Shown here: positions 13,917 to 32,838 of the stretch, in pieces
Position numbering within the stretch: the first letter of the stretch is position 1
Layout of the letters: the number at the start of each line of letters is the position of its first letter
Assembly (NCBI RefSeq): GCF_022601685.1
Contig: NZ_JAKUML010000009.1
Span: 1-64,000 of the forward strand
Reading direction: 5' to 3'
Source of the DNA: Acinetobacter sedimenti
GTDB taxonomy: Bacteria > Pseudomonadota > Gammaproteobacteria > Pseudomonadales > Moraxellaceae
Length of the DNA stretch: 64,000 bases
Program-made: the position numbers and the translations under genes
Notes under the pieces: generated by a model
Told to the model about the DNA's origin: nothing
The model's input: the letters and a program-made list of their open reading frames with translations, nothing else
Databases searched by the model: none

Positions 13917-14915
13917 CTAATCATCAGACTTTGGTAAGTTTTGCTTTGACCATTTTGCAGCAATGACACCGCACACCATCAGTTGAATTTGATGAAAAAT
14001 CATAATCGGCAAAACCAGCATCCCCATCGGTTGACCTGCAAATAAAATTTGCGCCATCGGCACACCACTTGCCAATGTCTTTTTTGAACCACAGAAAAAG
14101 ATCGTGATCTGATCTTGACGGTTAAAGCCGAGCCATTTAGGAATATAAAAGGCAAGCAACATAATAATCGTAAGCAACACTGAACAGGCAAGAATTAAAT
14201 AAAACAATGTCAACGCATCCAACTGTTGCCATAAGCCTGCAATCACCGCACTACTGAATGCGCCATACACCACCATCAAAATACTGCCCTGATCAAAAGC
14301 TTTGACGAGCTTAGGTACTTTGACCATATAGGGATAAATCCATGTACGAAGCAATTGCCCTAAAATAAATGGTACAAGCAGTAAAGCGACAATTTTGATA
14401 ATGGCACTTGTCGGATCATAGGCGTGTTCGGACTGACCCAAAATAAAAAAACTGACCATGATCGGCGTAATAAACATGCCGATAATATTAGAAAAAGATG
14501 CGCTACATACCGCACCCGCAACATTACCTCCTGCAACTGAGGTAAATGCAATTGAGGACTGTACCGTTGACGGTAAGAAGCATAAAAACAAAAAACCCAA
14601 ATACAGTGCGTCACCTAAGAGTGGTTGCAAAATTGGTTTTGATAGCAAGCCCAACAATGGAAATGCAATAAATGTGAAAGCAAAAACTAAGCTATGTAAA
14701 CGCCAGTGCAAAATACCTTGAATCACAGCCTCACGAGAAAGCTTTGCACCATGTAGGAAAAATAAAATAGCGATGGCAATTGTTGTAAGTGTATTAAATC
14801 TGTCTGCCCACTGCCCTGAGATCGGTAAAATACTGGCAAGGAGTACCATTACAACCAGTAATATCGTAAAGCGATCAACCGCCAAATACTTCAACACAAT
14901 GTACACCCCAAACAA
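13917..14915 (-). CDS. yfeH: YfeH-type bile acid:sodium symporter-like transporter
   Basis: A 332-residue, very hydrophobic protein with about ten TM helices. It belongs to the SBF-like family (DUF4137) of the bile acid:sodium symporter superfamily, as E. coli YfeH. Recognisable segments are FFLHGAKLSREA in the first helix pair, FLPSTVQSSIAFTSVAGGN in the middle, and FFCGSKKTLASGVPMA near the end. Substrate unknown; a sodium-coupled organic anion is expected for the family. Single gene. The gloA terminator lies just upstream of its start. Confidence 0.85.
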   Translation of the reverse strand: MFGVYIVLKYLAVDRFTILLVVMVLLASILPISGQWADRFNTLTTIAIAILFFLHGAKLSREAVIQGILHWRLHSLVFAFTFIAFPLLGLLSKPILQPLLGDALYLGFLFLCFLPSTVQSSIAFTSVAGGNVAGAVCSASFSNIIGMFITPIMVSFFILGQSEHAYDPTSAIIKIVALLLVPFILGQLLRTWIYPYMVKVPKLVKAFDQGSILMVVYGAFSSAVIAGLWQQLDALTLFYLILACSVLLTIIMLLAFYIPKWLGFNRQDQITIFFCGSKKTLASGVPMAQILFAGQPMGMLVLPIMIFHQIQLMVCGVIAAKWSKQNLPKSDD

Positions 14916-14930
14916 AAACTAGAAGTCAAT

Positions 14931-14970
14931 AAAAAACTCGGCATTGATCATAAACGCCGAGTTTAAAAAA
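14931..14970 (-). terminator. Terminator downstream of gloA
   Basis: The nine-base stem AAACTCGGC / GCCGAGTTT is followed on the minus strand by a T-run (complement of A6). Confidence 0.75.
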
Positions 14971-15039
14971 TCAAGTTAATTCTTAAGCTGATGATTAATC
15001 AAATCAATGTCTTATAAAAAAAATGAATTTAGTCAATCA

Positions 15040-15444
15040 TTAGTTGTTTCGAGCATTATGATCTTGTTGGATCAACTCTACTTTATAACCATCTGGATCT
15101 TCCACAAATGCAATCACAGTTACACCACCTTTCATCGGTCCTGCTTCACGTATTACATTACCGCCACGTGCTTTGATTTCTTCACAGGCTTGATAAGCAT
15201 CCTCAACGCCAATGGCAATATGTCCATAGCCATCACCCAAATCATAACTCGACGTGTCCCAGTTATATGTCAGCTCAAGTACGGTATGATCAGATTCATC
15301 ACCATAACCAACAAAAGCCAAGGTAAATCGCCCTTCCTCATAGTCTCGTTGACGCAACAATTTCATGCCGAGCACTTCGGTATAAAACTGCAATGATTTG
15401 TCCAAATTACCGACTCGTAACATGGTATGCAACATGCGCATCAT
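15040..15444 (-). CDS. gloA: Lactoylglutathione lyase (glyoxalase I)
   Basis: Converts the hemithioacetal of methylglyoxal and glutathione to S-lactoylglutathione. The sequence has the glyoxalase/VOC fold, with metal-ligand segments HTMLRV near the N-terminus, [17 protein letters not shown], and the C-terminal [12 protein letters not shown]. At 134 residues it has the length of the short Ni-dependent bacterial type. The ATG at 15444 has GAGGA eight bases upstream, so a longer frame beginning at 15501 is unlikely. It lies 25 bases after ampG on the same strand and probably shares its transcript. Confidence 0.95.
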
Positions 15445-15469
15445 ATTTTCCTCACGATTAGGTGGTTGG

Positions 15470-17674
15470 TTAATAGGAATTTTCAATCTGTTGGCGTTCA
15501 TGCGATTTTAGCAATTTTGCCACCCAGACCACAAGAATTAAAATTGGAATACCAATCAAGGTGGTCATCAAAAAGAAGTTTGGATAACCAATATTAGTTA
15601 CAATTGTACCCGAGTATCCACCGATAAGTTTTGGTGTCAACGTCATCAAAGAACTAAAGATCGCATATTGAACAGCAGTAAAAGACACACTAGTCAAACT
15701 TGATAGGAATGCAATAAACGCTGCACCTGCAAGACCTGAGGCTAAGTTATCCATGACGATCGCCATATATAACCAAAATTTGCTGTACTCTTTCACCACT
15801 TTGCCCGAGATCGTATATTGACTTTGTGTCAAGTCAATCATTGGCATAGGGTCAATTAAATTATTGAACTGATTCGATTGAATTGTAGGTGCGGTTTCAT
15901 CAATTTCATAACCTGTCAAAGTCATAAATTCATAATCATTGAGAATATAGCTTGCTTTTAATGATTTAAGCTCTGCTTGAATAAATTTTTCCGCTGGAAT
16001 CGCTACAGTAAATGTACCCTGCCCATCTATTTTTGCATCATATGATGTATCAGCCGTTTCCTCACCAAGCAAAACTTGAACCGTATTCTTGGAGTTTTTC
16101 TCAGCTTCTGTAAGACCAAGAATCTGCCCCTCAACCACTATACTTTGCTCAAGCTCATTTGGTTGTAATACACCATCACGAGTAAGTGGCAAAAAATGAA
16201 TTTGTACACGACCAATCGCCTTATCAGCTTTGGCATTCCCAACCACGTAAGGCAAATCATGCTCAACTTGATAGGACTGATCTTCATAGGAAACCGATGT
16301 GACTATCCGTCGGTCTTGCTCAAGCACTTTAGTCGGAACTGCAACTTTCCAAAATCCTACCTCGTCTGTATCAACACGATATTGCTGACCTGCTACAGAT
16401 ACAGTGACTTGAGATGTTGGTGCGCCTGACTTCACTAAAGCAATAAAAATCAAATTGGTACTGCTCGCCAATATCGCTCCGATAAACATCACTTTCATGA
16501 TATTAAATCGCTGTGAAAGTAAGCCACCCAAAAAGCCACCAATCAAGGTGAAAATTACACCGTAAATTTTCACAGCTTCGGCGATTTGCTCTTTGCTAAA
16601 GTTCATGTCTTGATAAAAGACATTAGAAATCACTCCAGCGACAATATCTGAAATACGGAAAAAACCAATCAACAATAATAAAACTAGGGCGAGCTTTACA
16701 CCATAACGCTTAAAAAAATCAGCGATCGGCGAAACCCAAGTTTCTTTTGCCATATCACGATTGACCGCACCGAGTTTGACCAATGAAAATCCGACGACAA
16801 AAGCAATCAATGCAGAGCCAACAAAGCGCACTGCAGCAAGCATAAATGATAAAAATGGGTCATCCACAGTGATCATCGTTAAAGCTTTACCAATATAAAT
16901 AAAACCTAAAACAAAGCTCACCACAGCACAGAAAAAGACAAAAACTAAGCGTAAATAATCTGATTTTTTATAACTTTTATAAATTCGCTCAACCTTTGGC
17001 TCAGCAACGATCAAAGTCGTGATCACGCCAATGATCATCACCGCAGCCATGATCCAGTAGGTTTTTTGCCACGCCTCGTAGATATAATTGCCCTTCGCTG
17101 TGCCATAAGCTGCTGCGACAAATAGCGCACCTGCACCTGCAATGATCATTCCGATGCGATAGCCTGCGTTATAGGTTGAAGCAAGTACTGTCTGCATCTC
17201 AGTCGGCGCAAGCTCAATACGATAGGCATCAATCACAATATCTTGTGTTGCAGATGCGAAACCAAGCAATACCGCACCAACAGCCATTTGGATCAGTTGC
17301 GACTGACCCATTGCAGGGTTCGACATCGCCATGATACAGATCGCCACCATAATCAAACACTGCGCAATCAGTAACCACGCACGTCGACGCCCTAATGTTT
17401 TGGTCAAGAACGGTACTGGAATTTCATCAATCAGTGGCGCCCAAACAAACTTAAAGGAATAACCAAGTGCCGCCCAGCTAAACATAGTAACGGCACTTTT
17501 TTCAATGCCTGCTTCACCGAGCCACAAGGACAAACTAGAAAAAATCAGTAGAATCGGTATCCCCGCCGAGAAACCCAAAAACAGCATAATGATCGCACGA
17601 CGATCCAAAAATGAGTTAAATGCACTGCCCCAATTTTTTGCAGTCTTTACTTCAGCCTGATTTGCATTTGCCAT
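15470..17674 (-). CDS. ampG: AmpG-family muropeptide permease with an inserted Ig-like extracytoplasmic region
   Basis: Major-facilitator permease importing anhydro-muropeptides for cell-wall recycling and beta-lactamase signalling. MFS/AmpG signatures are visible: [30 protein letters not shown] and [15 protein letters not shown]. Unusually, residues ~417-627 are not membrane-like. They form a hydrophilic, beta-rich block ([12 protein letters not shown], then [12 protein letters not shown], and a second [14 protein letters not shown] repeat) resembling tandem bacterial Ig-like domains inserted between late TM helices. With it the protein is 734 residues, against about 490 for E. coli AmpG. 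Start set at MANANQ; the frame extends 30 codons further upstream. Operon with gloA. Confidence 0.85.
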
Positions 17675-17989
17675 ATTGCGAGGTGTTCCTAAAGTGTTTC
17701 TGAAATATTTGCCCAGAGTGATTGGAATCGTTAAAAGTCCATTTATATCACTCAAAATACGCACTTAACCACAGATTAAGCGAACCGTAGAATGTACAAT
17801 TTGACACAATTCCACATTCATCGTTGTACTTTGATTTTAAATGATAAATCTACGCTAAAGAGTGACAATCTGTTATGTTTTATCCAAGTCATCTCTACTT
17901 GCCGATTTATCTTAGATTTTCACTTGAATTAAAGCAATAAAACTGTCACTTTAATAGTGAACGCAATACTCTTTTTTATGGATTAAATT
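17675..17989. other. Divergent intergenic region ampG / lon-like
   Basis: About 315 AT-rich bases between two divergent genes. It must hold both promoters, but I cannot single out a convincing -35/-10 pair and see no RNA gene. Confidence 0.4.
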
Positions 17990-20656
17990 GTGATTAACAA
18001 TCAAAAATCAGCGCATAATACTCTCATTGATTCTCAACCTTTATCACAAGACTACACCATCACCAACCAAACTCTGAAAAACAGTCCATTGAAAACCAAT
18101 CAAGTCAGCGCCCTGACAAACAAAGAAATCTTGCATACCATTCAGCACACCAAACTCAATGTTGCACAGCTCACGCATTTTGCCGATTTAGATAAGATTC
18201 CTGCATCGACACGACGTATCAAAGCACTGAATGACTTCCTTGGTCAAGATCGTGCCAAAGCGTCCGTTGAAGCAGGTCTAAGCTTACCTTATTCAGGCTA
18301 CAACATTTTTGCCGTAGGTACCGCAGGACTCGGTAAACGTACGATGATTAAGCGTTTACTCGCACAACATGCCAAAACGCTACCAACACCATCTGATTGG
18401 GTCTATGTCAACAACTTCCACGATGCACGTCAGCCATCAGCACTTGAGCTTGAAGCAGGTCAAGCGCCGAAGTTTCAAAAAGCCATGCATGACATGTGGG
18501 GCGCAATTCTACAACAATTAGAACGCCGTTTTAGTGCGGATACATATCACAAACAAATCGAAATGATTCGTGGTCAAGTCAGTCAACTTCAGCAAGAAGC
18601 ACTCCTTGAACTGACCCAAGAGGGTGAAGCACTGTCTTTAAAATTGGTGTCGAAAAACGAAGAACACATCTTTGTTCCAGTACACGATAGCAGCTCAGAA
18701 AAAGCTCAACCTCAAGAAATGAGCCAATCTGACATCGACGCATTGAATCCCAAAGATCGTATGAAAATTGCATCGAATATCAGCTATATGGATAAGAAGT
18801 TGCAACGTCTTGGCTCAACACTTGGCGGTATGGAAGATGTCGCACGAGATAAAGTCATTGACCTCAATCATGATATTGCTAAACAAGTGGTCGAACCCAA
18901 AGTTCAAAATATTTATAAACGCTTTGAAAATGTTGAACATTTGGCAAATTATCTTAAAGCCTATGCCAAGGATATTATTGAGCATGTCGAGCTGATTTTG
19001 GATCGTGAGGAAGAAGATTTTAGCCCAACCACATTCAACCGTGTCCCTGCTCGCTATCAAGTCAATGTTATAACAACGCACAAAGCCAACTCGGGCGCAC
19101 CTGTGATTTTTGAAGACTTCCCAACGCATTACAATCTGCTTGGACACGTCGAACAACTTACCCAAATGGGCACCATTACCACAGACTTTACTTTGATTCG
19201 CTCAGGTGCTTTGCATCGAGCTAATGGTGGCTTTCTGATTCTCGAAGCCGAACAAATGCTTGAGCAAGCTTACGCATGGCAAGGGCTAAAACGTGCGCTA
19301 AAATCTGGAAAATTAAAACTATCCTCGCTGGAACATATGTTGACCTTAACAGGCAGTATTTCTATTGAGCCACAATCAATTCCCCTGACAGTCAAAGTGA
19401 TTCTACTCGCAGAACCACAGATTTATTATGAAATCTTAGACTATGAGCCTGAACTCGGTAGCGTATTTAAAATTCGTGCTGATTTCACTGACACCTTACC
19501 CCGTACCGAAGCCAATGAACAGGCTTATATGCAACTAATTGCAGACTATGTACAGCGTGATAAATTGCGTCCATTTGATCGTTCTGCGCTTGCTGCATTA
19601 CTCACTGACTCCAGTCGTCAGGCGGAAGATCAAAAATCACTGTCCCTGCATGCTTCGACACTTGGTGATTTGATTCGTGAAGCGCATCATCATGCCCTAT
19701 TGCAAGATGCCAATACCGTGACCGCAGAACACATCAATATGGCATTACAACATCGTCAATATCGTCTTGGATATTTGCGAGAGCTCTATTGGCAAGACCT
19801 GTCACGTGGTACGCAACTCATTGAAACTTCAGGCTATCGCTTGGGTCAGATCAATGCACTTTCGGTTATCCATTATGCCGATGTGGAGTTTGGCTTACCA
19901 TCACGTTTAACCGCTTCGGTATACCAAGGTGGCGGCGATATTCTCGATATTGAGCGCAGTGTCGAGCTTGGTGGCTCACTGCATGCCAAAGGCGTTCTAC
20001 TCATGTCCAGCTTTTTAAAAGCACACTTCGGACGCACGCAAACCCTACACTTCTCTGCTGCATTGGCTTTTGAACAAAGCTACGGCGAGGTCGATGGCGA
20101 TAGTGCCACAGTGGCGGAGCTTTCTGCGCTCATTTCCGCAATTAGCCAAATTCCAATTGATCAATCTTGGGCAATCACAGGTTCAATGAATCAACTTGGA
20201 CAAGTACAACCAATTGGTGGCGTCAATGCCAAAATCGAAGGCTTCTTCGATGCCTGTAAACTACAAGGCTTCTCAGGTTCTCAAGGTGTGATTATCCCAC
20301 GTCAGAACATGCAACATCTAATGCTTCGCCAAGAAGTCATTGATGCGGTGAATGAAGATAAATTCCATATTCACGCCATTGATACCATTGACCAAGCCTT
20401 AGAAATCCTCATGTCACGCCCTGTTGGCACATTAGATAAAGATGGACAGTACAGTAAAGATTCGATCTTTGCAGCCGTAATGGAACAACTAAACTACTGG
20501 CAAGCAGTCGAAGATGGCGAGATCGAAGAGCCTAAAAAAGCCAAAAAGAAAAAACCAAAAGATGATAAAGCGAAAAAAGAGAAAGTCGCAGAAACGAAAG
20601 TGACTAAAAATAAGATGATCTCACGCAAACAAAAATCAAAGATGAAAAAGAAATAA
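17990..20656 (+). CDS. Lon-like ATP-dependent protease with long lysine-rich tail
   Basis: An 888-residue AAA+ protease of the LonB/YcbZ-like group (AAA_32 domain plus Lon proteolytic domain). Walker A is GTAGLGKRT (Lys116). The Lon serine-lysine dyad is visible as Ser705 (DGDSATVAEL) and Lys748 (GGVNAKIEGF), 43 residues apart as in Lon. It is much longer than E. coli YcbZ (about 586). The last ~45 residues are nearly all Lys, Asp and Glu, with KKAKKKKPK-type runs, suggesting a nucleic-acid or ribosome contact. The GTG at 17990 is the best start available; no upstream in-frame ATG survives. Single gene with its own terminator. Confidence 0.88.
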   Translation: MINNQKSAHNTLIDSQPLSQDYTITNQTLKNSPLKTNQVSALTNKEILHTIQHTKLNVAQLTHFADLDKIPASTRRIKALNDFLGQDRAKASVEAGLSLPYSGYNIFAVGTAGLGKRTMIKRLLAQHAKTLPTPSDWVYVNNFHDARQPSALELEAGQAPKFQKAMHDMWGAILQQLERRFSADTYHKQIEMIRGQVSQLQQEALLELTQEGEALSLKLVSKNEEHIFVPVHDSSSEKAQPQEMSQSDIDALNPKDRMKIASNISYMDKKLQRLGSTLGGMEDVARDKVIDLNHDIAKQVVEPKVQNIYKRFENVEHLANYLKAYAKDIIEHVELILDREEEDFSPTTFNRVPARYQVNVITTHKANSGAPVIFEDFPTHYNLLGHVEQLTQMGTITTDFTLIRSGALHRANGGFLILEAEQMLEQAYAWQGLKRALKSGKLKLSSLEHMLTLTGSISIEPQSIPLTVKVILLAEPQIYYEILDYEPELGSVFKIRADFTDTLPRTEANEQAYMQLIADYVQRDKLRPFDRSALAALLTDSSRQAEDQKSLSLHASTLGDLIREAHHHALLQDANTVTAEHINMALQHRQYRLGYLRELYWQDLSRGTQLIETSGYRLGQINALSVIHYADVEFGLPSRLTASVYQGGGDILDIERSVELGGSLHAKGVLLMSSFLKAHFGRTQTLHFSAALAFEQSYGEVDGDSATVAELSALISAISQIPIDQSWAITGSMNQLGQVQPIGGVNAKIEGFFDACKLQGFSGSQGVIIPRQNMQHLMLRQEVIDAVNEDKFHIHAIDTIDQALEILMSRPVGTLDKDGQYSKDSIFAAVMEQLNYWQAVEDGEIEEPKKAKKKKPKDDKAKKEKVAETKVTKNKMISRKQKSKMKKK

Positions 20657-20932: not shown

Positions 20933-20957
20933 TGGTGGGACGGAGAGAATCGAAGTC
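20933..20957 (-). repeat. attL: imperfect copy of the tRNA-Leu 3' end
   Basis: TGGTGGGACGGAGAGA is followed by ATCGAAGTCT. This repeats the end of the tRNA-Leu gene at 32754 onward, with one missing G and three mismatches. The longest identical core is about GGGACGGAGAGA. Same orientation as the tRNA end, so the two copies bracket the 20.9-32.8 kb element. It has no cloverleaf of its own. Confidence 0.75.
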
Positions 20958-21107
20958 TATCGCAATATATTGTTTTTATTATTATAAAAAATATTTACCC
21001 TCATCCTTACCCTCTAGCTTATCCTTATTATTGATTTTAACCCCCATTACGAAAAGGTCACTCTATGACTAAACATTAGCTAGTTATAGCTAGATTACAG
21101 CTAGTTT
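20958..21107. repeat. Left end of the element: integrase arm-type repeat and AGCTAG triplet
   Basis: The 22-base sequence at 21011-21032 (CCTCTAGCTTATCCTTATTA plus two T) recurs exactly at 32625-32646 near the other end, in direct orientation. It is a candidate integrase arm-binding site. At 21078, 21088 and 21099 the palindrome AGCTAG occurs three times at 10-11 base spacing. No gene in this stretch. Confidence 0.55.
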
Positions 21108-21791
21108 TTATTTCACCTCCATGTCTGTACCCAACTCATTAAAAAACTCCGTCAAGTTTTCCAATCGTCCCAAGTTTGATTTCTTCGGCTTGGTAGCTTC
21201 TTCCATCAGGTCATCGACAAATAATTTCTCGTTGGTCATTTCAGGGTCACGCTCAATGAGTGAATCTAGGTACTGGTAATTTTTCACATTTTGCTGAGCA
21301 ATGTATTTTTCACAAAGTTGTACCCTGTGCATCATTTCCTTAATGACTGGATTCACTGCACCCTGATCTAAACAATGTTGAATCAGTTTTTTATTAAAGT
21401 CGATCAGCTCCAAGACACTGTTGTCATTAAAATGTGTTAGATGCGCTATGCTAGCTTCGGATAAGCGTTCAATGTAATTACTCACCATCGTTACCGACCG
21501 TTCGGCAATAGCATTGTATAAAATCGCCACTTGTGACAATTTCGGGTCAATATCAGGCTCACCAGTAAAGCCAAGTACCCAATCTGCGGACACACCATAA
21601 AACAAACATAATCTAAGTAAAATAGCTGAGTTTGGTAGCCTACCATTCTCAATTTCACTGATACGGTTTTTGATCGGTTCGCCCCAAATATGCACGCCTA
21701 CGTCCTCCTGTCGCACCTTTGCCATTGTGCGAGCAATTTTCAAACGCTTGCCTACTGATTTCGCTGTCTTTTCTTCAATAAAAGCGGTCAT
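21108..21791 (-). CDS. XRE-family helix-turn-helix regulator
   Basis: A 227-residue protein with an N-terminal Cro/C1-type HTH (about residues 12-75: GKRLKIARTMAKVRQEDVGV, then NRISEIENGRLPN, then YGVSADWVLGF). The C-terminal half is helical and hydrophilic and I do not recognise it. There is no visible LexA-like peptidase motif. It is the leftmost gene of the integrated element and probably controls element genes. A 12-base inverted repeat (21868-21908) lies upstream and may be its operator. Its targets are unknown. Confidence 0.75.
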   Translation of the reverse strand: MTAFIEEKTAKSVGKRLKIARTMAKVRQEDVGVHIWGEPIKNRISEIENGRLPNSAILLRLCLFYGVSADWVLGFTGEPDIDPKLSQVAILYNAIAERSVTMVSNYIERLSEASIAHLTHFNDNSVLELIDFNKKLIQHCLDQGAVNPVIKEMMHRVQLCEKYIAQQNVKNYQYLDSLIERDPEMTNEKLFVDDLMEEATKPKKSNLGRLENLTEFFNELGTDMEVK

Positions 21792-23629: not shown

Positions 23630-24916
23630 CTAACGAACCTTCAAAAAGCTCCCTACACGAAATGGATTAGCACTTAACTTTTCACGGCTCATTTGCCAGT
23701 TATTATTTTTATTATGCACCGCACCCAATGACAATTTCGCTTTGCCAAATTTATCATGCACATTTTCAAAAGTTGCCATCAGCCGTTCAATTTCTTGAAC
23801 CTGTTGCATATCTGTGAGTAAGTCATAAGTATGTTTTGCTTTCGGTTCAAGGCACGTTAAAACCACACCACACTTTTTAAATCGAATCCCTTTTTCATAG
23901 AGAGTTGCAATCATCTTTGAGGCATATCTAGTCATCAAAAGTAAATCATCAGTCGGTTCGGGAAAACTAAAAGATACTGACTTGTTATAAAACGGCATAC
24001 TTTCATCGAAAGGATTTGATTGTACAAAAACCATCATACAACCACACAAGAGCGCATCATCTCGCAACCGCTTAAACGCATCTTGTACATACGCACGGAT
24101 TGCCGACTTTAAATCGACTAATTCAGTCACACGCTGTCCGAAAGAGCGACTAGAAATGATTTGTTGCTTTGCATCGGGTGTATGTTCAATCTCGATACAT
24201 GACGTACCTTGTAGCTCAAGTACGGTTCTTTGCATGACTACTGAAAACTGCTTCCGTATAAAACTATCATTTGCACTAGCCAAGTCCAATACATTAGTAA
24301 TACTGATATTTTGCAGTTTCTTACTGTGCTTACGTCCTACTCCCCACACTTCGCTTACATCAATTTGTGAAAATATATCTTCTTTTGAGGTTAGACTCAT
24401 TTCATAAAGATTACAAATTCCGTCATATTGCTGATTTTTCTTTGCAATGTGATTGGCTATTTTCGCTTCGGTTTTAGTCGCACCGATGCCAATGCACACA
24501 GGTAGGCTTAACCATTGCCAAAGTCTTGCTTTGATCTTCTGCGCCATTTGATCGAGGTCAAAGTTACGATGCCGTGTTAAGTCTAAAAAACATTCGTCAA
24601 TTGAATAAATTTCTTGCTCGCCTAGACCGACAAAATCAAAAAGGACGCTGTGAAATCGACGTGACATTTCACCATACAAGGCATAGTTACTTGATAGGAC
24701 TTGGATTTGATGCTGTTTGATCATGTCTTGCATCTTAAACAATGGTGTACCCATCTTTATGCCTAAGTCTTTGACTTCCTGACTCCGTGCGATTGCACAA
24801 CCATCATTATTAGACAGCACAAGAACAGGCACATTATTCAGCTTAGGATTAAACGCACGTTCGCAACTGACATAACAATTGTTGATGTCTACCAGTGCAA
24901 ATATTCGATTTTGCAT
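23630..24916 (-). CDS. umuC: DNA polymerase V catalytic subunit UmuC
   Basis: Y-family error-prone polymerase for SOS translesion synthesis with RecA and UmuD'2. The N-terminal palm motif ALVDINNCYVSCERAFNP and the YSIDECFLDL catalytic motif are both intact. GIGATKTEAKIANHIAKK and the VWGVGRK HhH region follow. 428 residues is full length for UmuC. It starts 13 bases after umuD on the same strand, the standard umuDC operon. It is carried on the integrated element, so it is probably an accessory copy. Regulation is expected to be SOS-linked. Confidence 0.95.
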   Translation of the reverse strand: MQNRIFALVDINNCYVSCERAFNPKLNNVPVLVLSNNDGCAIARSQEVKDLGIKMGTPLFKMQDMIKQHQIQVLSSNYALYGEMSRRFHSVLFDFVGLGEQEIYSIDECFLDLTRHRNFDLDQMAQKIKARLWQWLSLPVCIGIGATKTEAKIANHIAKKNQQYDGICNLYEMSLTSKEDIFSQIDVSEVWGVGRKHSKKLQNISITNVLDLASANDSFIRKQFSVVMQRTVLELQGTSCIEIEHTPDAKQQIISSRSFGQRVTELVDLKSAIRAYVQDAFKRLRDDALLCGCMMVFVQSNPFDESMPFYNKSVSFSFPEPTDDLLLMTRYASKMIATLYEKGIRFKKCGVVLTCLEPKAKHTYDLLTDMQQVQEIERLMATFENVHDKFGKAKLSLGAVHNKNNNWQMSREKLSANPFRVGSFLKVR

Positions 24917-24929
24917 GATACTGACTCAA

Positions 24930-25478
24930 CTATTTACGCTTACGCAGGGGCTTGATAATACTGGTGACAACTCCCCATATTTGCAGTTCTTGACCATCAA
25001 GAAAGTGTATGTCTGAGTATTCAGGATTTTCGGCTTTGAGGTAAGTTTCTTGCGGAGTAATGATGAGTCGTTTAACGGTAAACTCATTATCTACAAGCGC
25101 AATAACAATCTCACCATCGTGCGCATTTAAGCTCCGATCAACAATTAATTGATCGCCCACATCTATACCAGCATTGAACATAGATAATGAATTGACTTCA
25201 ACAATGAATGTTGCCGATTGGTTATCAATCAAAAACTCATTTAAATCAATAGAGCGGTCGATATAGTCATTCGCAGGGGACGGAAAGCCTGCCGATACTC
25301 GATCAAGTACAAAGGGTATGCTCACAGTAGTTCTTGCAACTACAGGGCGAATATCGTGCGAAGAAACACTTTCAAGTAAGGCGTTTAAAGTCGGGCTTGG
25401 ACTGCCATTTTCACCCATCAGATTTTGCAATGAACGCCATGCACCATCTGAGAAATAGACTTGCAATTTCTTAGTCAT
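24930..25478 (-). CDS. umuD: UmuD, long Acinetobacter-type, self-cleaving S24 peptidase
   Basis: 182 residues from the ATG at 25478, which has AGGAG seven bases upstream. The peptidase domain is complete. The cleavage site is Ala63-Gly64 in SAGFPSPA, the nucleophile Ser99 and the general base Lys136 (FTVKRL). The 36- and 37-residue spacings equal those of E. coli UmuD. The N-terminus before the cleavage site is about 40 residues longer than in E. coli. It reads KKLQVYFSDGAWRSLQNL, as in Acinetobacter UmuDAb, which also acts as a LexA-like repressor of DNA-damage genes. Operon with umuC. Confidence 0.92.
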   Translation of the reverse strand: MTKKLQVYFSDGAWRSLQNLMGENGSPSPTLNALLESVSSHDIRPVVARTTVSIPFVLDRVSAGFPSPANDYIDRSIDLNEFLIDNQSATFIVEVNSLSMFNAGIDVGDQLIVDRSLNAHDGEIVIALVDNEFTVKRLIITPQETYLKAENPEYSDIHFLDGQELQIWGVVTSIIKPLRKRK

Positions 25479-25588
25479 ATTAGAACTCCTATGCAACTTG
25501 GCATGTTTGAAGTTATCTGTAATGAATAGGATACGGCGATTTGCAAAAATGATGCAACGACTATAAACCCAATAAAATCAACTGAGCG
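25479..25588 (-). promoter_or_regulatory. umuD upstream region with AACTT-N10-AAGTT inverted repeat
   Basis: Bases 25495-25514 contain AACTT and AAGTT as an inverted pair spaced by ten bases, 16-36 bases upstream of the umuD ATG. The position suits an operator, possibly for UmuD itself or a related damage repressor. It is not a clear match to a consensus I can quote. Confidence 0.4.
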
Positions 25589-26248
25589 TCAAAATAAGTC
25601 GTGCTGTGGTGAGATTTTTTGAGGGCGAGGCATGTGTTTAGCCGTAAATTCGTCTGACATGTCGAGGAAAAAATCAGGTGCAATTCTATGATTTGTATTC
25701 AGCCAGTCTTTACGGTGTTGTTCAGGGATGATAATTATTGAGCGTTTTTCATCGTTAGGCTGGTGAAATTGGGACATGAAAGGATGCTGGTCTGCATTGA
25801 TCGTGAGCATGGTCATTGAGCGCACTTGCTGACCGTCTATCGTGGTGTTTTCAAACAGCCCAGCTACGGTAAAAGGCTTGCCATCTTTTCGGAATATTCC
25901 CCATCGCTGTGCTTTACCATCTATGTATCGAGGTTCATAGATAATTTCTACAGGAATCAAAGCAAATTGATTGTTTTGCCAAGCGTGGCTAAAGCTCGGC
26001 TTCTCATGAACAGTTTCCGTGCGAGCATTGTAGGTATAACGGCAAATATCTAAACTCTTTGCCCACTTTGGTATTAATCCGAATTTTACATTGCGCCATT
26101 CAATGTTTGCAGTATTTGGGTTATGAAAGAGTAAAGCACTGTCATGACTCGGATAAATGTCATCACCAAGTTCAAAGTTTGGCGTTTGCAAGTCAAGCCC
26201 AAGTTGTAGAATCTTGGGCTTGCTGATCGGCTTAAAGTTGGCGCACAT
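25589..26248 (-). CDS. yedK: SOS response-associated peptidase (SRAP; YedK/HMCES family)
   Basis: SRAP proteins crosslink to abasic sites in single-stranded DNA through Cys2 and shield them. Cys2 is present (MCANF). The active-site Asn is in YNARTET, the Glu lies in the LIPVEIIYEP strand, and the histidine region reads INADQHPFMSQFH. That last segment differs somewhat from the common IHxRMP form. At 219 residues it has family length. It lies directly upstream of umuDC on the same strand, making a three-gene DNA-damage module within the mobile element. The GCTAA iteron array is immediately upstream. Confidence 0.9.
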   Translation of the reverse strand: MCANFKPISKPKILQLGLDLQTPNFELGDDIYPSHDSALLFHNPNTANIEWRNVKFGLIPKWAKSLDICRYTYNARTETVHEKPSFSHAWQNNQFALIPVEIIYEPRYIDGKAQRWGIFRKDGKPFTVAGLFENTTIDGQQVRSMTMLTINADQHPFMSQFHQPNDEKRSIIIIPEQHRKDWLNTNHRIAPDFFLDMSDEFTAKHMPRPQKISPQHDLF

Positions 26249-26338
26249 TGATACTTAATTTAATGATCCAGTTTAATTAAAGAAACCATATTACATTGAG
26301 AAAGTCGAGCATTCCCCTAAAAGTACAATACAAAAAAA

Positions 26339-26545
26339 CCTGCTAATTCTGCTAATTTCAGCTATAAGTCTTATGTACCAATAGTTATAGCTTAGCAATA
26401 CCCATGCTAACTCTTTGCTAATTCTGCTAAATCCCTGCTAATTAGCAATGAATTAGCAACTTTTAGCAACCGATTAGCAAGCCGTATGCTATTACCAAAG
26501 CTATACACTTCAATTGATACAGCCATTTTTAGCAGAATTAGCAAG
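26339..26545. repeat. Symmetric iteron array: six GCTAA then seven TTAGC repeats
   Basis: Thirteen GCTAA pentamers occur in about 200 bases. Plus-orientation copies are at 26342, 26351, 26406, 26417, 26426 and 26437. Reverse copies are at 26392, 26442, 26453, 26463, 26474, 26529 and 26538. Neighbouring copies are mostly 9-11 bases apart. The palindrome GCTAATTAGC at 26437-26446 is the centre. A 17-mer (TTGCTAATTCTGCTAAA, from 26416) returns inverted at about 26527-26543. The array overlaps the last codons of the DUF3987 gene and fills the space before yedK. Confidence 0.8.
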
Positions 26546-28784
26546 TTTTTCGGCAATATGGATTAAAAATAATGTAATCCTTGTTATTGATTTGCTCGAT
26601 TTGGATGTAATTTGCATCAATCAAGTGTGTAAGGATTTCGTTATAAATTACGCCATTTCTAAATTTAGATGGTGCATATTGTCGGATGGATGATTTTAAA
26701 ATCTTCTCCTCATTTTGTTTAAGCAACCAGTCCAATAATTCTTGTGCATCAGATTTCTTGAGCGTTTCAACCTCTGCATAACGCAACCATTCACTAAGCG
26801 AATGCCTTAGCACTTCACAAGCACTTTGCATGATCTCGCCAGTGATTATGCTCTGTACCTCAAAATACGCCAGTACCGTAGCTAAGCGTCTAGCGAGCTG
26901 TGGCGCTCGGCTTGCGAAAGGTTGAATATATTCATATCGTTTGCCTTTAGCCTGCAAACGCTCACACTCGTTGTAGAAATCAAGCTCTACGGTGTTGGCT
27001 TCATCACTCATGGGGATAATTGGGCGTGCTGGCGTGTCGCTGTCTATCTGCTGTGATTTGCGCTCATAGTCAAATAGTGGCAATAACTCGGTGCATCGTT
27101 GCCAGTAGGCGATTAGTCTAGGGTCTTTATTGGTGTGCCTTGTTTTATTTCTGAATGCGCTGTCCTGCGTGCGTTGCCCTGCGAGATTTTCAGGTACGGT
27201 TAAAATGAAGCGTGGTAAAAAGCCTTGTTCACGTAGCAATGGGTCTTTGAGCGCATCAGATAGCACCTCATGCTGTCCCTGTAAGTTGAATGCAAGGCGC
27301 ACGTCATCAGCTCTGCCACTACCATTGATATTAGATTTTCCACGTGTGCGCTGTGTAGAACCATCATCAAATAGCTTGGTAAATCCGCCTAGTGCATTTC
27401 TTGCCGTGTCACCTTTCATAGTGTGACCGCCAAAAAATTGCCCTGCTTCATCACTGCTGATTGACGCATTAACAATATTGCCATCAATATAAAGTGCTGA
27501 TAGTGACTCAAAAGTGACATCGTTAAATATGCTCGATGGGTCGCACGGCTTTGGATTGTCCGCAAGGAAAGCACCTTGTTCTTTTTTACTGGGTAGTGCA
27601 TTGAGTTCACTTTCCCATGCTTCAAGCTCAGCCTTATAGTCGTTGTATGCTTTGCGTTCATGCTCTGTTATAACTTTATTTGCAAGTGACATACTGCTAC
27701 TTTTACGGCTTCCACTTTTGCCCTCAGTTAATAGGAATAAACTGCACGGCTCACCGATACCGCAAACATCATTCGGCTTCGGTGCGTTTACTGAACGCTG
27801 AGCGAGGTGCGTAGCTGTGGCTAGAACACACTGCACCGTCATGGCGATAGGTGCTTGCACATATTCAGATATGGCAATGCTGGCATCCTTAATCAGTGTA
27901 GGCAAAGCGTCTATAGGGTATGGATTAGGCTTTAGCTCGATGTTTTGCGAAAGTGGTAGCAGTGCGTCCCATGTCGGGCTATAATTATTCTGCTGTGTAA
28001 TCTGCTTGCGTACAGATTTAAGGGCTTGAATATCTGTCGTGGTGTTCAAGCCTTTTTCATTTCTAGCCGATTCATCTTTCTGTAACGCTTCATCAATCAA
28101 TTCTTGCACCTCTGCATTATCCATAAACACAATATCTAAATCACTATCAATAAATCGCACCTTGTAGCTCGCTACGGCGTTTTTCAGTGCGTCATGTAGC
28201 TTCGGGTACACTTGCGAATAGGACACCATATACAAGCGGTTAAAACCAGCTTTTGATAGCTGACTGCACACCGATTTAATTAATCTGCATTCGTGGTTTG
28301 AAAACTCGTTTTTCACTTCATTACTGAGTTCTTCACTCGACACACAGAACGCCACACTATAGCCGTTGTCCGCCAGTTTTAAGGCGGTATGTAGGTCGTA
28401 AGCAATAAATATCGGCTTTGATTGCTCAAAACTCCCAAAGCGTGCAAACGCTCTAGGCTTGTGTTCAGGGTGTATCTGCGTGCGCTTGCCAAGCTCCATA
28501 ATGGCAACTTGTTTTAACTCTCCCTTGCCGTTGCACAGTGGCAAAAGCAAAGGCTCGTGATACTTCGTACCGTTGATTTCAGGATTGCTAAAGTCGAAGT
28601 GCAGTGCTTGCACGATGTTGGGATTATTCCCAGTAGCAAACAACGCATGATTTAAGCGTCTTTCATCATTTGACTGTACCAATTCCGCAAGTTCTAACCA
28701 TTGTTCAGGTGTGGTAACTTCGGCTTGTAGTGGTTCGAATAGGTCGGGCGTAGTGTCCCAGTCGGTTTTAACATTGGCTGTCAT
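26538..28784 (-). CDS. DUF3987 (YfjI-like) P-loop replication/primase-helicase-type protein
   Basis: A 748-residue protein. The first ~230 residues include a region (IFIAYDLHTALKLADNGYSV) reminiscent of a degenerate Toprim primase domain. The rest is DUF3987, as in YfjI of the E. coli CP4-57 prophage. Its P-loop is GKSGSRKS at 355-362 and a downstream acidic motif is SISSDEAGQFF. Such proteins act as replication ATPases of P4-like elements, an inference from family and context. Its start overlaps the upstream 93-aa gene by four bases. Its end runs into the GCTAA iteron array, a typical rep-origin arrangement. Confidence 0.8.
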   Translation of the reverse strand: MTANVKTDWDTTPDLFEPLQAEVTTPEQWLELAELVQSNDERRLNHALFATGNNPNIVQALHFDFSNPEINGTKYHEPLLLPLCNGKGELKQVAIMELGKRTQIHPEHKPRAFARFGSFEQSKPIFIAYDLHTALKLADNGYSVAFCVSSEELSNEVKNEFSNHECRLIKSVCSQLSKAGFNRLYMVSYSQVYPKLHDALKNAVASYKVRFIDSDLDIVFMDNAEVQELIDEALQKDESARNEKGLNTTTDIQALKSVRKQITQQNNYSPTWDALLPLSQNIELKPNPYPIDALPTLIKDASIAISEYVQAPIAMTVQCVLATATHLAQRSVNAPKPNDVCGIGEPCSLFLLTEGKSGSRKSSSMSLANKVITEHERKAYNDYKAELEAWESELNALPSKKEQGAFLADNPKPCDPSSIFNDVTFESLSALYIDGNIVNASISSDEAGQFFGGHTMKGDTARNALGGFTKLFDDGSTQRTRGKSNINGSGRADDVRLAFNLQGQHEVLSDALKDPLLREQGFLPRFILTVPENLAGQRTQDSAFRNKTRHTNKDPRLIAYWQRCTELLPLFDYERKSQQIDSDTPARPIIPMSDEANTVELDFYNECERLQAKGKRYEYIQPFASRAPQLARRLATVLAYFEVQSIITGEIMQSACEVLRHSLSEWLRYAEVETLKKSDAQELLDWLLKQNEEKILKSSIRQYAPSKFRNGVIYNEILTHLIDANYIQIEQINNKDYIIFNPYCRKTC

Positions 28785-29637: not shown

Positions 29638-29847
29638 TTATGCTCCCTGCGCTTCGGCTTTCTTGCTGTTGTGCCATGCAACGAGGTCGGCATAGTCAAA
29701 GTACACGGCTGATTGTCGTTTCGTGCCTTGCTTGATTGACTTAGGAAAATCAGGGTCGTTGTTTTGCAGATTGCGCAGGGTGTCACGTGAAATGCTTAAA
29801 AGTTCACATGCTTGCTTGTAGGTCACTCGGATTGGTGTAGGGTGCAT
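29638..29847 (-). CDS. alpA: AlpA-family excisionase/transcription regulator
   Basis: 69 residues with the MerR-like HTH of AlpA (VTYKQACELLSISRDTLRNLQ, then DFPKSIKQG, and YFDYADLVAWHNSKK). In CP4-57, AlpA activates the integrase and drives excision; Vis of P4 is related. It is the first gene of the replication operon. Its Shine-Dalgarno GGAG is inside a hairpin (29853-29880) that could hide it. Length and motif order match the family. Confidence 0.88.
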   Translation of the reverse strand: MHPTPIRVTYKQACELLSISRDTLRNLQNNDPDFPKSIKQGTKRQSAVYFDYADLVAWHNSKKAEAQGA

Positions 29848-31244: not shown

Positions 31245-32579
31245 CTATGCTTTTCTAAATTGGATAACTTCGCTTTGATCAAGTGCTAGCTTGGTTTGAA
31301 CGCCATAATCGTGCGGACTGATATAGCCTTTTTTATTTTGCTCAAGGTAGTTACTCCACCAGTACATCATATCTTTACGTTCTTCTAAAAACTCCGCCAT
31401 GTGCGTGTAAGCCAATCGGGTCTTGTCACGTTCCTTATGGCTCATTTGCCGTTCTACTGCGTCCTCACTGAACAAAGTGGATTGAATCAGCGCACCACAT
31501 GCCATAGTACGGATTCCATGACCGTCAATCTCGGTTTGCGTGTCATAGCCTAAAGCTCTAAGTAACTTCGTCACGGTGTTTTCACTGATAAATTTTTCAG
31601 GGTCGTCACGGCTCGGGAATACGTTTGCACAATGTCCGCTATAAATCTTAATCTCCTTGAGAATCTCAATCGCCTGTGGTGATAGTGGGACAAGATGATT
31701 TTCACTCATCTTTGCACCTCGATCAGAATAACGCACCCCATCGACATACTCCCTTGATGCAGGGATTACCAATTGCTTTTTATCAAGATCAAATTCACTC
31801 CATCGAGCAAAGCGCACCTCTGACGAACGTATGAATAGATGCAAGGTCAATGAAAGGCAAAGTTTAGAAAGTGGCAAGCAACGATTATGTTGTTCAATAC
31901 GGTTTAACAACTCATTCAAGCGGTGATGCGGTAATGCAGGGTGGTGTTTGACTTTTCGAGCTGTGATTAATCCGTCTAACTCACGTGCAGGATTGTGCCT
32001 AATGTAGTCATGCTGAATGGCAAAGGTGAATATCCGCACTAGGTTTGCCCTTAAATCTCGTGCGACACGATTAACGCCTTTATTGTCGATAATGGTTAAT
32101 GCTTTGGTCAGGTCGTGCGTTCTGATTTCTTCAATAGGCAATTCACCAATCAAAGGGAATAGATGATTTTCAAATTTACGTAACGTCTTATGACCTGTAT
32201 CACCGCCCCACTTTCCTTTAGCAGTTTGTTCGGTATGCCATAGCCGTGTGACTTTTTCTAATGATGTGGCATTGTCGAGCTTATCCTGTTCTATTTGCAA
32301 TTGCTCTCTAGGGTCGAGCTTATCGGCAAGCATTGCTAAATATTCTGAACGCTTCGCACGTGCATTTTTTAAGGATAAGGCAGGATATTCGCCTAGTGTC
32401 AAAAGAATATCTTTTTTAGTAATTGGGTGCGGATATTTAAAACGCCATACTTTCTTTTTAGAGGGTAATGCACGAATTTCTAAAATAAGCCCATTGCCGT
32501 CATACATACGAACAAGCTTATCCTTATTCTTTAAGGAATCAAGTAAGGTCGGGGATAATGGTGTAGTTTGCTTAGCCAT
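31245..32579 (-). CDS. int: P4-type tyrosine recombinase (integrase)
   Basis: Site-specific recombinase for integration at the adjacent tRNA-Leu. The N-terminal ~90 residues form the DUF4102 arm-binding domain (LTLGEYPALSLKNARAKRSE). The SAM-like core-binding domain follows, and then the catalytic domain. Arg is in FIRSSEVRFARW, His-x-x-Arg in DGHGIRTMA, His in MSHKERD, and the Tyr nucleophile in AYTHMAEF. At 444 residues it is full length and looks active. It is oriented with its 5' end toward the tRNA, about 175 bases from attR. Repeats resembling TTATCCTTA lie at its start and between it and the tRNA. Confidence 0.95.
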   Translation of the reverse strand: MAKQTTPLSPTLLDSLKNKDKLVRMYDGNGLILEIRALPSKKKVWRFKYPHPITKKDILLTLGEYPALSLKNARAKRSEYLAMLADKLDPREQLQIEQDKLDNATSLEKVTRLWHTEQTAKGKWGGDTGHKTLRKFENHLFPLIGELPIEEIRTHDLTKALTIIDNKGVNRVARDLRANLVRIFTFAIQHDYIRHNPARELDGLITARKVKHHPALPHHRLNELLNRIEQHNRCLPLSKLCLSLTLHLFIRSSEVRFARWSEFDLDKKQLVIPASREYVDGVRYSDRGAKMSENHLVPLSPQAIEILKEIKIYSGHCANVFPSRDDPEKFISENTVTKLLRALGYDTQTEIDGHGIRTMACGALIQSTLFSEDAVERQMSHKERDKTRLAYTHMAEFLEERKDMMYWWSNYLEQNKKGYISPHDYGVQTKLALDQSEVIQFRKA

Positions 32580-32598: not shown

Positions 32599-32649
32599 TT
32601 TTAAGGATAAAGTATATCGCTTATCCTCTAGCTTATCCTTATTATTTGA
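32599..32649. repeat. Right-end arm-type repeats
   Basis: Contains the second exact copy (32625-32646) of the 22-base CCTCTAGCTTATCC... repeat found at 21011, plus an inverted AAGGATAA at 32603. GCTTATCCTTATT occurs again near 32516, inside the integrase gene. These are plausible integrase arm sites. Confidence 0.5.
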
Positions 32650-32753: not shown

Positions 32754-32838
32754 TGGTGGGGACGGAGAGACTCGAACTCTCACACCTTGCGGCGCTGGAA
32801 CCTAAATCCAGTGCGTCTACCAATTTCGCCACGTCCCC
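32754..32838 (-). tRNA. tRNA-Leu (anticodon TAG), integration target of the element
   Basis: The reverse complement starts GGGGACGTGGCGAAATTGG and ends GTCCCCACCA. The anticodon stem CTGGA/TCCAG encloses TTTAGGT, giving anticodon UAG. A long variable arm fits tRNA-Leu. CCA is encoded. Its 3' 25-27 bases (32754-32780) are attR of the 20.9-32.8 kb element. The gene remains intact after integration. Confidence 0.93.

Follow-up and report, generated by a model that had tools for sequence, protein, structure and literature searches.

A mirror-symmetric TGCTAA iteron array behind a DUF3987 gene as the probable replication origin of an integrative element in Acinetobacter

The Rep protein of SaPI reads iterons downstream of its gene with a C-terminal domain, and the C-terminal domain of SCCmec Cch2 was shown to bind repeats located just downstream of the cch2 gene (PMC7581432). 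In EcCICFT073 the tested origin is located directly after the primase-helicase gene, and its pri-ori region replicates a plasmid, with a loss or strong reduction of replication when either pri or ori is missing (PMC6092414). Deletion of prim, which encodes a DUF3987/DUF5906-class primase according to the search model of that paper, lowers the copy number of PICMI115 (PMC10803314). In PLE, the DNA-binding domain of the RepA_N initiator and the ori covary and are swapped as a module (PMC8263062, PMC7145576). No description of an iteron origin for DUF3987 proteins was found in the open-access literature searched.

The window analysed here, a 64-kb stretch of DNA from an Acinetobacter, contains a mirror-symmetric array of 13 TGCTAA/TTAGCA words at the 3' end of a DUF3987 gene. 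Judged from its sequence and by analogy with tested origins, the array, situated in an integrative, satellite-like element of ~11.8 kb, is probably an iteron origin like that of the SaPI/PICI rep-ori modules, with the DUF3987 protein as initiator; the probability of this reading is put at roughly 0.86. The genes of the element are all on the minus strand, with the tyrosine integrase by tRNA-Leu(TAG) marking one end, and are arranged in the order integrase, AlpA-type protein, DUF3987, array, yedK, umuD, umuC, three small ORFs and XRE regulator:

32754..32838, minus strand: tRNA-Leu(TAG), proposed integration site
31245..32579, minus strand: tyrosine integrase of the element
29638..29847, minus strand: AlpA-type helix-turn-helix protein
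26538..28784, minus strand: DUF3987 (PF13148) protein of 748 aa, proposed initiator helicase
26781..27857, minus strand: its AAA+ ATPase domain (residues 310-668), with MCM helicases as the closest solved folds
26541..26750, minus strand: its predicted C-terminal winged-helix domain (residues 679-748), proposed iteron reader
26341..26543: mirror-symmetric iteron array, proposed replication origin, dyad at ~26442
25589..26248, minus strand: yedK (SRAP), apparent cargo beyond the array
24930..25496, minus strand: umuD-like gene (Peptidase_S24), apparent cargo
23630..24916, minus strand: umuC-like Y-family polymerase gene, apparent cargo
21108..21791, minus strand: XRE-type regulator near the far end of the element
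21011..21032, plus strand: CCTCTAGCTTATCCTTATTATT, exact 22-base repeat near both element ends (other copy at 32625-32646)
20933..20958: imperfect copy of the tRNA-Leu 3' end (27-nt match, 89%), proposed other border, weak

The degenerate tRNA copy suggests, as a weak border, that the element extends over ~20.9-32.8 kb. An empty integration site was not found among the loci fetched, where the Lon-like neighbour gene was present in relatives with no tRNA or kinase gene beside it. The two CCTCTAGCTTATCCTTATTATT repeats are possibly arm-binding sites of the integrase. Searches of PHROGs and NCBIfam gave no explanation for the small ORFs of the element, and those of its ORFs that were scanned against Pfam and PHROGs produced no match to terS or capsid-morphogenesis genes. 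A second DUF3987 element is present in the same genome (L020, contig C7, about 14231-19403, array word GGCTAA). Three of its genes, orf86, orf117 and orf185, are in common with the window element (93, 96 and 79% identity, respectively), while yedK-umuDC are not in the stretch of it that was read.

An earlier note on this DNA had described thirteen GCTAA/TTAGC pentamers in about 200 bases, and this was confirmed by counting: 13 words are present at 26342-26542, whereas 2000 dinucleotide shuffles of 26249-26560 contained 2.4 on average and never more than 8. Over the whole window GCTAA is not in excess (116 seen vs 132 expected). The pentamers proved to be part of a longer unit, TGCTAA, whose cluster at the array is the strongest of any 6-mer in the 64 kb. 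The array is composed as follows:

Pentamer starts, left part: 26342(+), 26351(+), 26392(-), 26406(+), 26417(+), 26426(+), 26437(+)
Pentamer starts, right part: 26442(-), 26453(-), 26463(-), 26474(-), 26529(-), 26538(-)
26341..26355, plus strand: left outer iteron pair, 9 bp apart
26392..26397, minus strand: reversed iteron copy, outside the inner comb
26405..26441, plus strand: left inner comb of four iterons, 9-11 bp apart
26437..26446: dyad GCTAATTAGC
26442..26479, minus strand: right inner comb of four iterons, 10-11 bp apart
26529..26543, minus strand: right outer iteron pair, the last copy over the DUF3987 stop codon

The perfect palindrome claimed for the centre is thus found at the dyad, the spacing of mostly 9-11 bases holds for 8 of the 12 start-to-start distances, and the 17-mer said to return inverted about 110 bases away does so exactly (26415-26431 and 26528-26544, 113 bases start to start). 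The opposite orientation of the pentamers on the two sides of the centre stands overall, except for the minus copy at 26392, which points against its half; such reversed copies also occur in several relatives, ~44-54 bp from the dyad. Apart from the 17-mer, a 22-nt arm pair (26334-26355 and 26529-26550) is 95% complementary, and the last iteron supplies the end of the DUF3987 gene, with TGC TAA read as Cys-stop. In the 2.5 Mb genome, TGCTAATT-N(0-4)-TGCTAA was found in the array and nowhere else. The single-strand folding of the array is strong (z -7.8), which is explained by the mirrored words, and a cruciform or single-strand hairpin reading was therefore dropped.

Relatives of the DUF3987 protein in genome contigs were found with an alignment query, while a single-sequence query with the window protein gave none. 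The survey sample included 127 distinct complete DUF3987 genes, of which 126 were scored downstream and 121 upstream. A significant word cluster (above all shuffles) was present directly 3' of the stop codon in 79 of 126 genes, compared to 5' of the start in only 2 of 121, and clusters with seven or more copies numbered 60 downstream vs 0 upstream. Control ORFs from the same loci were followed by clusters in 14 of 250 cases, and several of these were additional copies of the word of the element itself. No significant downstream cluster was present in the remaining 47 of the 126 genes, several phage-type ones among them. The yfjI gene of E. coli K-12, examined as the YfjI namesake, had no array, and in a class-wide sample 8 of 30 DUF3987 genes had one, so that the array marks a large subset of the DUF3987 family. 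Beside close homologues, where its absence or scrambling had been named as refutation, the array was found in the same place and with the same layout, and with a different word. By this distribution, the array belongs to the DUF3987 gene and not to yedK-umuDC.

The words varied by element and included TGCTAA, TGACTAA, TTGCGATT, GGCTTAA, GGGAAAGT and others. In viral contigs, exact 15-mers matched by chance only. Two Psychrobacter plasmids, pA52P5 and pA37P2 (L029 and L030), are small circles on which RepM is accompanied by an integrase and by a DUF3987 gene whose array has the word GCTTAA, i.e., two apparent replication systems per element. At another locus (L008/L014; G011 contig C1, 2533127-2535188) the DUF3987 gene is split in two frames, with the GCTTAA cluster kept after the second part.

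AlphaFold2 predicted a confident C-terminal winged helix at residues 679-747 of the window protein, and the isolated C-terminal domain matched winged-helix folds with high probability at weak E-values (E>=0.03). Profile searches of PDB sequences were uninformative. Across the relatives, word similarity correlated with C-terminal identity when the ATPase domain was controlled for (partial r 0.25, Mantel p 0.001, not fully phylogeny-corrected), and did not correlate with ATPase identity when the C-terminus was controlled for (r -0.003). All 33 pairs with a C-terminal identity of at least 65% had the same word and none a different one, compared to 839 of 886 pairs with different words below 40% (47 pairs with the same word). 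In sister genes with different words the DNA was mostly 75-99% identical until ~150-230 bp before the stop codon and dropped past this breakpoint to ~30-65% through the winged helix and the array, compared to 83-96% through the array in a same-word sister pair. The closest C-terminus to that of the window protein in the set belonged to the paralogue from its own genome (44%, although the ATPase domains share 29%), whose word GGCTAA is one base from TGCTAA. In these comparisons the word tracks the winged-helix domain, not the ATPase domain, albeit the word, winged helix and array adjoin in the DNA and co-inheritance could therefore explain part of the correlation. The winged helix and the word are proposed to form an exchangeable specificity cassette.

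The geometry was compared in 46 dyad loci with 24 word cores, aligned on the dyad, which was located 46-170 bp past the stop codon. Their common plan consisted of an inner comb at ~10-40 bp and outer pairs at ~80-110 bp from the dyad, with marks at ±14/24/34 and about ±90/98, respectively; the words faced inward and mostly started with TG or GG, and the outer pairs were spaced 8-9 bp. Same-direction gaps peaked at 8-9, 10-11, 55 and 66 bp, the last two being about one helical turn apart. The AT content of the interior was not raised, with a mild rise only ~105-135 bp from the dyad (0.65-0.69 vs ~0.58). Tested one by one, 32 of 69 loci were significantly mirror-symmetric at 0.05, showing that the symmetry is strong in many loci and not in all. 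In several halomonad or viral loci, half-arrays of the same word in opposite orientation faced apart at kilobase distances and bracketed the replication genes (L151, 4609-4839 and 9575-9646; L149, 1234-1306 and 6450-6521; L131, 2983-3057, 7608-7682 and 11004-11077), which recalls the separate ori and crr of P4; a tight dyad is thus not universal. The sequence of EcCICFT073, read here, contains 11 GGTAGA words after the pri stop codon in the layout of the DUF3987 arrays: the match was 0.63 compared to 0.40 for random mirrored arrays (p 0.008), with 10 of 11 words matched in L055 and 8 of 11 in the window array. The EcCICFT073 helicase belongs to D5_N/DUF5906, not to PF13148, and its support is therefore by analogy.

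According to the proposed mechanism, the DUF3987 protein of the element would act as the initiator and its C-terminal winged helix would bind the inward-facing TGCTAA words. Through the mirror halves, the MCM-like AAA+ ring would be placed at both sides of the dyad, presumably one ring per half, and the DNA would open and be replicated after excision, presumably with a bidirectional start and with the origin active in its host. The comparative support for an origin comes from the DUF3987-specific occurrence of the array, its constant geometry and polarity, the correspondence between word and winged helix, and the similar tested satellite origin, all of which point in this direction. A broader reading, which we regard as tentative and slightly less probable than its opposite, is that satellite-like elements would use a fixed spatial code (±14/24/34, ±90/98) common to at least two helicase families, DUF3987 and D5_N/DUF5906, with DUF3987 proteins as self-loading initiator helicases and the word exchanged as a winged-helix-plus-array cassette, which would permit many mutually compatible replicons.

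The proposal of the earlier note that the array couples element replication to the yedK-umuDC damage module was not borne out. In its regulatory form, an operator or promoter at which the XRE regulator or the DUF3987 protein would bind and control yedK-umuDC, this explanation would fit the position of the array in the 289-bp gap that precedes yedK on the same strand, and initiators often autoregulate. It is nevertheless very improbable: tblastn detected yedK and umuDC at no other DUF3987 locus, the genes past the array varied (91 families in 46 loci, the largest of which, ssb-like, occurred in 5), no sigma-70-like promoter was present at 26240-26600, and the word follows the DUF3987 C-terminus. 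By the same comparison, yedK-umuDC look like cargo. The ssb-like gene follows the array at L063, L073, L081, L143 and L144, and an ssb gene is also present after the array of EcCICFT073.

The remaining explanations concern replication and maintenance of the element itself. A non-functional remnant of the origin of a degraded element, to which the imperfect att copy at the left border and the failure to find an empty site could point, is unlikely in view of 13 exact words out of 13, a nearly perfect mirror and the open reading frames of the 748-aa helicase and the integrase. Slightly less likely still is a function as a second cis element or as a copy-control/incompatibility locus, with the melting origin elsewhere in the element: crr of P4 is also placed 3' of alpha, apart from ori, in some halomonad loci the same word forms another array at a distance, and the array interior is not AT-rich, but the TGCTAATT-containing motif is without another copy in the genome, and the layout is that of the tested EcCICFT073 origin, where replication is supported by the stretch 3' of pri. 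Iteron arrays are bound by winged-helix proteins such as TubR, which was one of the weak fold matches to the C-terminal domain (E 0.046); a centromere-like partition site is, however, the least credible of these alternatives, since the winged helix forms part of a helicase protein and none of the element ORFs compared with Pfam and PHROGs was named as ParA/ParB or as a TubZ partner.

With the array taken as a probable iteron origin, PF13148, which is still named a protein of unknown function, would gain a concrete role in its array-bearing subset, and each array-bearing member now has a candidate DNA target. What stands out from these sequences is this likely function together with a geometry that is conserved while the word changes. 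The origins of many integrated Gram-negative elements may become findable by sequence alone, and dozens of winged helices, each with its own short word in a constant frame, represent a natural experiment in protein-DNA recognition. If the geometry reflects the need of the helicase, the placement of an AAA+ ring at a bacterial mobile origin becomes testable. The idea of repeats coupling replication to mutagenesis genes is corrected.

The earlier note had also placed the array where P4-like elements carry their origin; the connection of an iteron-type origin with the DUF3987 gene is supported, while "P4-like" was too loose. The likeness to P4 includes a primase-helicase with iterons next to the 3' end of its gene (crr 3' of alpha) and oppositely oriented copies. 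However, crr consists of a 120-bp direct repeat in two copies, at a distance of 4.5 kb from ori, and no match to psu, sid or delta was detected among the element ORFs scanned with Pfam and PHROGs; with both the genes and the crr/ori layout unlike, membership among P4-like elements was rejected. The window element shares int, alpA and a DUF3987 primase-class gene with PICMI, in whose description the words "iteron" and "helicase" are absent from the main text (PMC10803314). In contrast to PICMI, which are found beside fis in Vibrionaceae with minimal genes, it is situated beside tRNA-Leu in Acinetobacter and is larger, with cargo genes. SCCmec is similar in having an MCM-like (Cch) or D5-like (Cch2) helicase, and differs in its DUF927/D5 families, its staphylococcal hosts and the three iterons of Cch2 without a long mirror array (PMC7581432). 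The PLE initiator belongs to the RepA_N family and is not a DUF3987 helicase, and its iterons are semi-palindromes of ~30 bp. The AT-rich core of PICI origins was not seen between the mirrored sets of the window. The window element resembles PICI in the presence of int, an AlpA-type regulator, rep, a putative ori and an imperfect attachment site, and it shares with the SaPI/PICI rep-ori the iterons directly 3' of the initiator helicase gene, where they probably have the same role. The likeness to EcCICFT073 and PICI extends to mirrored iteron sets with an element-specific word and int and alpA in the same element, and in EcCICFT073 the outer pairs, reversed copies and inner comb are positioned at nearly equal distances.
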